The notes beneath the pieces are model-generated. The model was given only the letters and a program-made list of their open reading frames with translations. It made no database searches and had not been told where the DNA came from. Shown piece after piece: positions 5,394-31,626 of a stretch of DNA of 57,438 nucleotides. Origin of the DNA: Pigmentiphaga humi (lineage in GTDB: Bacteria; Pseudomonadota; Gammaproteobacteria; Burkholderiales; Burkholderiaceae_B); assembly GCF_900606115.1 (NCBI RefSeq), contig NZ_UWPJ01000032.1, positions 1-57,438 of the forward strand, written 5' to 3'. Each line of letters starts with the position of its first letter. Positions within the stretch are counted from its first letter, which is position 1. The translations under genes were made by a program, and so were the position numbers.

Positions 5394-5660
5394 CTTCGCG
5401 CTGTGCTCAAAGCCCATTGGCGGTGAATAGCGGATTTCTCGCTCTCTGTGCTTACGAATCAAAGAGTCCAATGTCGGGGCCGAAGCCCACGACCCCCTCG
5501 GTGACGCCGCCGACCGTCCCCAGTACAAGCACGGACGGGGCGATGTAGGGGCGCTTCGATTCGAGTTCCGGCGCCGCCGGCTGCTGGTTCGGTGTGTAAT
5601 TCATACTACCTCCCTATGTATTGTGGCTAGCTTTTAACACAACATTTCCGCTTTCGCGGC
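5394..5660 (-). repeat. Lasso-precursor locus repeat, copy 1
   Basis: About 267 bases closely match 27335-27605 in the same orientation. The match covers a small gene, its ribosome site, some 56 bases upstream and part of the downstream region. The leader coding sequence and upstream block are almost identical, while the 3' end of the gene and the downstream region differ. Similarity stops abruptly at both ends. No transposase or terminal repeats are seen, so a segmental duplication is more likely than an insertion sequence. Confidence 0.88.
5452..5604 (-). CDS. Putative lasso-peptide precursor, copy 1
   Basis: A 50-residue peptide on the minus strand, ATG 5604 to TAA 5452, with GGGAGG about five bases upstream. 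The leader (residues 1-36) ends in KRPYIAPSVLVLG and GGVTE. It has the Tyr-x-x-Pro leader motif recognised by lasso RRE proteins and Thr at -2. The predicted core (37-50) is GVVGFGPDIGLFDS, with Gly1 and Asp8 placed to form an eight-residue macrolactam ring and a six-residue tail. No lasso cyclase, leader peptidase or transporter gene is in the window, so this is an orphan precursor. Class is inferred from the motif layout; activity is unproven. Confidence 0.75.
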   Translation of the reverse strand: MNYTPNQQPAAPELESKRPYIAPSVLVLGTVGGVTEGVVGFGPDIGLFDS

Positions 5661-5692
5661 ATCCATTCTTGCGGTCCGCACCGGCTGACTGC

Positions 5693-5893
5693 CTACCCCT
5701 GCGCCTGCCCCCGGTAACTGTTGATCGCCGTCAAGGCTTGAGTGCGAGCCATGTTTTCCGTTTCGATCAGATCCTGCCAGGTCATCCAGCAATTCGGGTC
5801 AAGGACGTCGTTGTTCCCGAAATAGTCATGCACGGCGGTGTGCGCGTCATCCCATACTCGCATGGCGTTCCGGACCTCGGCAATGGTCAGCAT
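5693..5893 (-). CDS. Small hypothetical protein (66 aa)
   Basis: Starts at ATG 5893 with GAGGAG about five bases upstream, which is better supported than an in-frame extension to 5960. The product is acidic, soluble and has no signal peptide or membrane segment. It contains one Cys and a Trp-rich DPNCWMTWQDL stretch. I do not recognise the family. It lies 88 bases upstream of lasso-precursor copy 1 on the same strand, so the two could share a transcript. No equivalent accompanies copy 2, which argues against an obligate partnership. Confidence 0.5.
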   Translation of the reverse strand: MLTIAEVRNAMRVWDDAHTAVHDYFGNNDVLDPNCWMTWQDLIETENMARTQALTAINSYRGQAQG

Positions 5894-27334: not shown

Positions 27335-27605
27335 CTTCGCGTTGCGCCCAAAGCCCGCCGGTCCGTGGATAGCGGGTTTATCGCGCTCTGTGCTTACGAC
27401 TCAAAGAGTGCAAGGTCGGGGCCGATGCCCATGAGGGGCCCCTCGGTGACGCCGCCGACCGTCCCCAGTACAAGCACGGACGGGGCCATGTAGGGGCGCT
27501 TCGATTCGAGTTCCGGCGCCGCCGGCTGCTGGTTCGGTGTGTAATCCATACTACCTCCCTATGTATTGTGGCTAGCTTTTAACACAGCATTTCCGCTTTT
27601 GCGGC
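27335..27605 (-). repeat. Lasso-precursor locus repeat, copy 2
   Basis: This second copy of the 5394-5660 segment keeps the same orientation about 22 kb away. Upstream block, ribosome site and leader codons are nearly identical to copy 1, with changes concentrated in the last 15 codons of the gene and in the 3' flank. It lies just outside the tRNA-Thr island, between the LysR gene and the island's distal end. Confidence 0.88.
27394..27549 (-). CDS. Putative lasso-peptide precursor, copy 2
   Basis: A 51-residue peptide, ATG 27549 to TAA 27394, with GGGAGG about five bases upstream. Leader residues 1-36 differ from copy 1 only at Asp2 and Met21, keeping KRPY-x-APSVLVLG and GGVTE with Thr at -2. 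The core (37-51) is GPLMGIGPDLALFES. One extra residue moves the acceptor to Asp9, predicting a nine-residue ring and six-residue tail. Core identity with copy 1 is about half, although the leader is nearly invariant. As with copy 1, no processing enzymes are encoded nearby. Confidence 0.75.
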   Translation of the reverse strand: MDYTPNQQPAAPELESKRPYMAPSVLVLGTVGGVTEGPLMGIGPDLALFES

Positions 27606-27677: not shown

Positions 27678-27690
27678 AAAGGAATCGAAC
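27678..27690 (-). other. Candidate distal attachment site (att)
   Basis: AAAGGAATCGAAC is identical to 31562-31574 inside tRNA-Thr and has the same orientation. On the minus strand the context (TCGAGG...GTTCGATTCCTTT) matches the T-arm of the tRNA with a short insertion, and the acceptor end is diverged (CGCCACA against CGGCACCA). This looks like the displaced 3' end left by integration. Confidence 0.6.
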
Positions 27691-30720: not shown

Positions 30721-31369
30721 TCACTGTCCGAGATTCGGACTAGGCACCGCGGAGGTGACGAACGCGCACGAACGCAAGCGAACGCGGGTCAACGCAAAGT
30801 GTGTGGTCTTGGGCGAAGGGATCGCGCCAACCAAGTCGCGGGCCGGATCGGATTTGCAAAGGCCCTCCTTGATCCCGAAGCGGAATACGAGGCTAATCTT
30901 GCTGCGCACCTTGTGGGCAGTATGCCGGGCACCCCGCCCGTCGATGCGCTTCAGCACGATCAGGATTTCGGGGGCGTCAATCGCAGTAATGGGCCGCTTG
31001 CCTAGCCAAGGGAACACGTCATTTTCCATCCATGACAGCGCATGGTCATAGGTGCTTTCCGTCGGCCTCGAAGGAATTAGCCGCCGCCAACGTCTCGGCG
31101 CGCTTGGAGGCCTGTTTGACCTCGCCAGGATCGGAGCCTGCCGCCAACAGCTTGCGGGCCTCCTGGTGCCTGTCCCGAGCGCCGGCCAACGTCACATCCG
31201 GATAGACGCCATAAGCCAGGGTCTTTTGCTTGCCTAGATGGCGGTAATTCCAGCGCCAATATTTCCCGCCGTCCGGGTTCACCAGCAAGTACAGACCGTC
31301 CCCATTGGCAAGCTTGTAGGGCTTCGCCCTGGGCTTGGCCTGGCTCACGGCGGTATCGGTGAGGGGCAT
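30721..31369 (-). pseudogene. Tyrosine integrase remnant (P4-type, DUF4102 N-terminus)
   Basis: ATG 31369 begins MPLTDTAVSQAKPRAKPYKLANGDGLYLLV, then GGKYWRWNYRHLGKQKTLAYGVYPDVTLAGAR, the arm-binding domain of tRNA-targeting integrases. This frame ends at 31046 after NSFEA. The core-binding domain continues in another frame from about 31040 (WMENDVFPWLGKRPITAIDAPEILIVLKRI to DPARDLVGAIPS), so a short deletion and frameshift separate them. The catalytic domain with the Arg-His-Arg-Tyr residues is missing altogether. The integrase cannot be active. Confidence 0.85.
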
Positions 31370-31550: not shown

Positions 31551-31626
31551 TGGTGCCGGTGAAAGGAATCGAACCCTCGACCTTCTCATTACAAGTGAGC
31601 TGCTCTACCAACTGAGCTACACCGGC
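31551..31626 (-). tRNA. tRNA-Thr (anticodon TGT)
   Basis: The minus strand gives a full cloverleaf: acceptor GCCGGTG / CACCGGC, D-arm GCTCAGTTGGTAGAGC, anticodon loop CTTGTAA reading TGT, T-loop GGTTCGATTCC and encoded CCA (31551-31553). TGT decodes ACA (Thr). Its 3' end is the insertion target of the adjacent integrative element. Confidence 0.96.

Follow-up and report, generated by a model that had tools for sequence, protein, structure and literature searches.

Kinase and sulfotransferase genes are known in lasso peptide clusters (PMC4289311). In paeninodin-type clusters, HprK-like kinases phosphorylate the C-terminal Ser before folding, and some of these clusters also carry a sulfotransferase; in the case of pseudomycoidin, a nucleotidyltransferase adds hexoses (PMC8498205). 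The bsf cluster of Bradymonas sediminis consists of the gene set A, B1, B2, C, D, K and N, with bsfA inside the cluster, and its kinase BsfK phosphorylates Ser3 (PMC10368454). Studied lasso precursors share Tyr(-17), Pro(-14), Leu(-12) and a conserved penultimate Thr (PMC10368454). Heterocycloanthracin, a TOMM of Bacillus cereus, has a precursor gene distal to its modifying enzymes (PMC4603692), and the citrulassin lasso pathway uses a gene outside its cluster, namely that of a deiminase (PMC8498205).

The genome of Pigmentiphaga humi encodes a probable lasso system that resembles the paeninodin/pseudomycoidin type in its enzymes and in the C-terminal Ser of its precursors. It differs from that type in having two likely precursors, which are located on another contig. 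This distal position recalls heterocycloanthracin, although the RiPP class and the enzymes differ, and citrulassin, although there the distal gene is not the precursor. The peptide class and its tailoring, phosphorylated lasso peptides, are known. The dispersed arrangement of precursors and enzymes seems to be unreported for lasso peptides: no lasso precedent was found in the literature searched, in which papers were available in part, while other RiPPs do show such an arrangement. Lasso genome mining ordinarily seeks the precursor beside the cyclase. If precursors can sit elsewhere, some clusters dismissed as precursor-less could in fact be complete, and lasso peptides would be more numerous than current estimates suggest.

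Paralogous putative precursor genes on contig C30

The window, a stretch of 57,438 nucleotides, is the entire contig C30 of a 5.12-Mb genome in 56 contigs. The original prediction placed a lasso precursor ORF of 50 codons at 5452-5604. The ORF exists, but it is read from the minus strand, which had been left unstated; the plus strand gives another sequence. Its translation is MNYTPNQQPAAPELESKRPYIAPSVLVLGTVGGVTEGVVGFGPDIGLFDS (Table 1). The residues named in advance are all present: Tyr20, Pro23, LVLG at 26-29, Thr35, Gly37, and Asp44, which is core Asp8 with six residues after it. Recomputed core masses of 1360.6663 Da (cyclised) and 1378.6769 Da (linear) agree with the earlier values. A second copy encodes a peptide that is 84% identical to the first, with a computed mass of 1497.754 Da for the cyclised core.

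Both leaders match the register of studied lasso precursors, except that in copy 1 Val stands at -12 and Leu at -11. Gly(-8) is a further lasso leader position. A lasso core has a small residue 1, Asp or Glu at positions 7-9, and a tail; the two cores offer Gly1-Asp8 and Gly1-Asp9. A regular expression of this register, composed after the ORF had been seen, was matched in leader and core by two of the 372 window ORFs of 25-110 aa. Both are the paralogous copies, and the two matches therefore count as one event. Across 60 first-order Markov resamples of the window, none of 45,568 ORFs matched. The register control and the existence of the second copy rule out a chance ORF. Pfam and NCBIfam models gave no match to the precursor peptide at E≤1; short divergent peptides of this kind frequently lack a family model match. 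A plain conserved protein domain is also ruled out, as no convincing relative was found elsewhere in the collections searched. The ORF and its paralogue are thus very likely lasso precursors, a reading supported by the agreement of the leader register with studied precursors and by the presence of B1, B2 and two lasso-type cyclases in the genome.

The copies are not equally similar along their length. Their leader DNA is identical at 106 of 108 nt, with both differences changing the amino acid, and their core DNA at 36 of 42 nt plus one inserted codon, all six substitutions being nonsynonymous (Fisher p = 0.006 for core versus leader divergence). The change is not clearly specific to the core because the 3' flank of the cassette diverges too; the pattern is explained equally well by strong 5' constraint, by gene conversion or by selection acting on the core. 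The acceptor Asp, the terminal Ser, the open frame and the ribosome-binding site are kept in both copies. A DNA search of the genome found no third copy of the cassette, the seven further matches spanning just 17-25 bp.

The region of copy 2 also contains a tRNA-Thr gene (31551-31626), with phage-integrase fragments between (PF22022 in 30721-31029, minus strand), and a 13-nt match to tRNA-Thr occurs at 27678-27690. Judged from these features, copy 2 may lie at the edge of an island.

Table 1. Features of the precursor loci (window coordinates), of the C8 cluster (L010 = C8:80001-100000, the 20 kb read around the cluster) and of the C43 precursor (L011 = C43:31001-51000)
Feature	Location	Strand	Remarks
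Precursor gene copy 1, 50 aa	5452..5604	-	translation, register regex, resampling control
Copy 1 leader, 36 codons	5497..5604	-	Y20 = -17, P23 = -14, V25 = -12, G29 = -8, T35 = -2
Copy 1 predicted core GVVGFGPDIGLFDS	5455..5496	-	predicted ring Gly1-Asp8, C-terminal Ser14
Shine-Dalgarno-like GGGAGG, copy 1	5609..5614	-	4 nt 5' of ATG
60 nt upstream of copy 1	5605..5664	-	identity with copy 2 56/60; nearest 42 nt, 41
Duplicated cassette, whole, copy 1	5402..5660	-	DNA comparison
Precursor gene copy 2, 51 aa, MDYTPNQQPAAPELESKRPYMAPSVLVLGTVGGVTEGPLMGIGPDLALFES	27394..27549	-	paralogue of copy 1
Copy 2 predicted core GPLMGIGPDLALFES	27397..27441	-	predicted ring Gly1-Asp9, C-terminal Ser15
Shine-Dalgarno-like GGGAGG, copy 2	27554..27559	-	
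Duplicated cassette, whole, copy 2	27343..27605	-	DNA 91% identical to copy 1 cassette
B1	L010:4688-4981	+	
Kinase 1	L010:4974-5912	+	
AAA_5 protein	L010, between kinase 1 and CobT_C protein	+	
CobT_C protein	L010, ends 8618	+	
Cyclase	L010:8615-10552	+	PF00733
B2	L010:10569-11063	+	PF13471
ABC transporter	L010, ends 12913	+	
Nucleotidyltransferase	L010:12910-14169	+	PF14907
APS kinase	L010:14150-14737	-	PF01583, E 1.4e-64
Kinase 2	L010, ends 15778	+	weak HprK matches only
Sulfotransferase	L010:15775-16632	+	PF00685
C43 precursor	L011:4697-4855		predicted core FGAAGAQDGDTYS, starts with Phe, ends in Ser

Lasso-type enzyme genes on contig C8

The precursor had been called an orphan, with no cyclase or peptidase gene visible in the 57 kb, and this holds as to position: no lasso enzyme is encoded on C30. 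Within the genome, the asparagine synthetase family PF00733 has three matches, at C8:156157-157326 (378 bits), C8:89335-90450 and C43:40181-41293, the first of which is probably an ordinary asparagine synthetase by its score. The B2 family PF13471 has two (C8:90689-91021 and C8:183381-183689), and PF05402 has five, on C8, C43 and C44. None of these matches lies on C30, and precursor and enzyme genes do not cluster there. A lack of lasso B and C genes would have spoken against the original prediction; B1, B2 and two cyclases were found.

The main cluster on C8 encodes B1, B2 and a cyclase together with an ABC exporter. B1 is assigned to the lasso PqqD chaperones (NCBIfam NF033536, 85.1 bits, cut-off 80) and matches TbiB1, whose structure has been solved, at E 2.7e-13, and B2 scores 79.3 bits with NF033537 (cut-off 33). 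The best family of the cyclase is the lasso cyclase NF033535 (E 1.7e-102); its 344 bits lie below the cut-off of 525, so by that rule it is not a clear member, a point against maturation of the orphans by C8. Kinase 1 passes PF07475 marginally (33.4 bits, cut-off 33.3) and stays far under the cut-offs of the NCBIfam HprK models.

The kinase, nucleotidyltransferase and sulfotransferase genes beside these enzymes are shared with paeninodin and pseudomycoidin clusters, to which C8 adds an APS kinase, a second HprK-like gene and a CobS/CobT-like pair (PMC8498205). The position of the APS kinase beside the sulfotransferase suggests that the cluster has its own PAPS supply. In comparison with the bsf system, the gene set is alike, as are Y(-17) and P(-14) of the leader and the kinase motif H..G..G.GKS..DD, the residues of which were matched by eye in kinase 1 (PMC10368454). 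The bsf precursor has Ile at -2 and is phosphorylated on Ser3, whereas the orphans have Thr at -2 and Ser at the C-terminus only.

No precursor was found in the C8 cluster: the strict regular expression matched none of 108 small ORFs in the 20 kb, although the search used regular expressions only, which a precursor of another design could escape. With the loosest expression, a 63-aa frame antisense to B1 and a 29-aa frame appeared and were judged by eye to be noise.

The CobS/CobT-like pair (AAA_5, CobT_C; L010:4982-8618) stands right before the lasso-type cyclase. The same pair precedes the cyclase in the same order in Halomonas sulfidaeris (L025:7454-10558). A literature search joining 'lasso peptide' with CobT returned nothing on this subject, as judged by the titles.

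Further lasso-like loci occur in the genome. At C8:181-186 kb (L028:6976-12023), a cyclase-less system comprises a PqqD gene, an HprK-like gene and a frame fused to a B2 domain (NF033537, 44.3 bits, cut-off 33). It includes two precursors with lasso-like YxxP...G...T leaders and short cores that contain neither Asp nor Glu and come after ...GCWETVTG and ...GCWETITG. C44 encodes two tandem PqqD-like proteins (L029:9477-11076), the second joined to a methyltransferase-like part as seen by eye, with more kinase-like frames nearby.

Proposed pairing of precursors and enzymes

The orphan genes probably encode lasso precursors that lack local enzymes and are matured in trans by the enzymes of C8, and the pairing with C8 rather than with C43 is likely. 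In the proposed pathway, B1 of C8, a stand-alone RRE protein, would bind the leader via Y(-17)xxP(-14). B2 would cleave after residue 36, with Thr at -2, and the asparagine-synthetase-like cyclase would link Gly1 to Asp8 in copy 1 or to Asp9 in copy 2. Before folding, the C-terminal Ser would probably receive a phosphate from one or both HprK-like kinases. Further decoration may come from the nucleotidyltransferase and the PAPS-linked sulfotransferase, and the ABC transporter would export the product. Phosphorylation of the terminal Ser is plausible; this Ser is the one hydroxyl residue of each orphan core, with no other Ser, Thr or Tyr. Because the kinase may act on it, a product heavier than 1360.67 Da is possible. 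BsfK acts on Ser3, and the site of modification here therefore cannot be assumed.

That no precursor was found by C8 favours this pairing, as it leaves enzymes without a substrate gene in a genome that has substrate genes without enzymes. Also in favour are the leader register, the B1 and B2 assignments and the best family of the cyclase, the accessory genes typical of phosphorylated lasso clusters, the lone C-terminal Ser of both cores, and a duplication that kept the leader while the core changed. Among the 268 genomes of the family, moreover, a convincing precursor and a C8-type cyclase at E≤1e-50 each occur in this genome alone. Several points count against the pairing. Rings of eight and nine residues would require one tolerant cyclase. 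Neither copy was found to have a sigma-70-type promoter consensus nearby. Alignments of the cassettes with C8, C43 or the 181-kb system for a shared promoter did not rise above shuffles, nor did the similarity of the region upstream of the cassettes to that upstream of C8 B1, leaving co-regulation unsupported. The co-occurrence concerns a single genome, with which no statistical co-occurrence is possible. If C30 and C8 belong to one molecule, some 90 kb or more separate copy 1 from the cluster (84.7 kb between the cluster and the closer end of C8, plus 5.4 kb).

It is also conceivable, though unlikely, that the main partner of the orphans is the cyclase cluster on C43, which spans L011:4697-10398 in the order precursor, B1, kinase-like gene, 741-aa frame and cyclase. 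Its cyclase shares 62% identity with the C8 cyclase, its B1 matches TbiB1 (1.5e-10), and the leader of its precursor, which likewise ends in Ser, aligns gap-free to the orphan leader (PYLKPELLDRGSVAEQT vs PYIAPSVLVLGTVGGVT). However, C43 has a precursor of its own, and the PF13471 search found no B2 there, so that C43 would need to borrow the B2 of C8. In addition, its B1 scores 59.4 bits with the lasso family, under the cut-off of 80 that the B1 of C8 exceeds. The kinase-like gene of C43 reaches 29.7 bits, under the Pfam cut-off of 33.3, and the 741-aa frame has a weak squalene-hopene-cyclase match.

Decayed or silent leftovers, which were copied out of a cluster since lost and have ceased to be expressed or matured, are a distinctly improbable explanation of the two genes. 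Their restriction to one strain, the absence of lasso enzymes nearby, the integrase fragments and tRNA-Thr close to copy 2 and the promoter result would all fit such remnants. Yet both frames are open behind a common ribosome-binding site, all but 2 of the 108 leader nt agree, neither the acceptor Asp nor the terminal Ser has been lost, and intact lasso enzymes are present in the genome. Finally, a leader-like small protein that is no lasso precursor, trimmed for example by B1/B2 without cyclisation, finds a parallel in the two genes at C8:181-186 kb beside PqqD, kinase-like and B2-fusion genes, but is highly improbable given that the orphan cores have the Gly1 and Asp8 or Asp9 that those short cores lack.

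Maturation in trans by C8 may be part of a larger hub-and-spoke arrangement, which is put forward tentatively as a doubtful possibility. It would comprise the precursor-less C8, the B2-less C43, duplicating cassettes and a CobS/CobT-like pair in use. The cassettes would be self-contained units of ~260 bp with their own ribosome-binding site that duplicate to new sites, their cores and ring sizes diversifying while the leader stays. The AAA+/VWA pair of C8 would perhaps be a folding chaperone. Two precursors whose rings have 8 and 9 residues, and which may be served by one cyclase, would represent a natural test of ring-size tolerance.

Distribution and genomic context

Relatives of the precursor were sought at several levels. 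Short back-translated stretches found none in the genome contig collection, and tblastn at E≤1 gave no match in plasmids and phages. Within the genus, one of 11 genomes has the precursor, namely its own. A precursor profile at E≤0.1 matched nine of the 268 family genomes, convincingly in the own genome only. The other eight have one match each (E 0.014-0.09), six of them in open frames of 242-538 aa; the matches in L017 and L021 were read, and no such gene was seen. In the order, the profile at E≤0.01 matched two of 399 genomes, the own one and another that matches over 16 positions of a 634-aa frame.

In the class sample, two of 369 genomes match the C8 cyclase at E≤1e-60, the own genome and G883 (36%). 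The sole named relative of this cyclase from a pattern scan is that of Halomonas sulfidaeris (47%), and the 339 matching records of the plasmid collection are all below 60% identity, with Tistrella mobilis as the best (40%). About 10 kb from the Halomonas sulfidaeris cyclase, an ORF without Pfam match (L025:21340-21585, minus strand) encodes a leader in the YxxP...G...T register followed by Gly/His/Trp repeats.

On the same strand as copy 1, a 66-codon ORF lies upstream (5693-5893, minus strand). It has no Pfam or NCBIfam family and no plasmid match, was not seen at this site in four congeners, and is absent by sequence upstream of copy 2. These four congeners carry the DUF1800 gene that neighbours copy 1 at 79-81% identity; the other six, with a weak match (two) or none (four), are outside the site comparison. 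The precursor is absent from the 7.4-7.5 kb around DUF1800 in all four (tblastn, best E 0.30). In three of the four, a TctC-type gene also flanks the site, with a different small gene in between.
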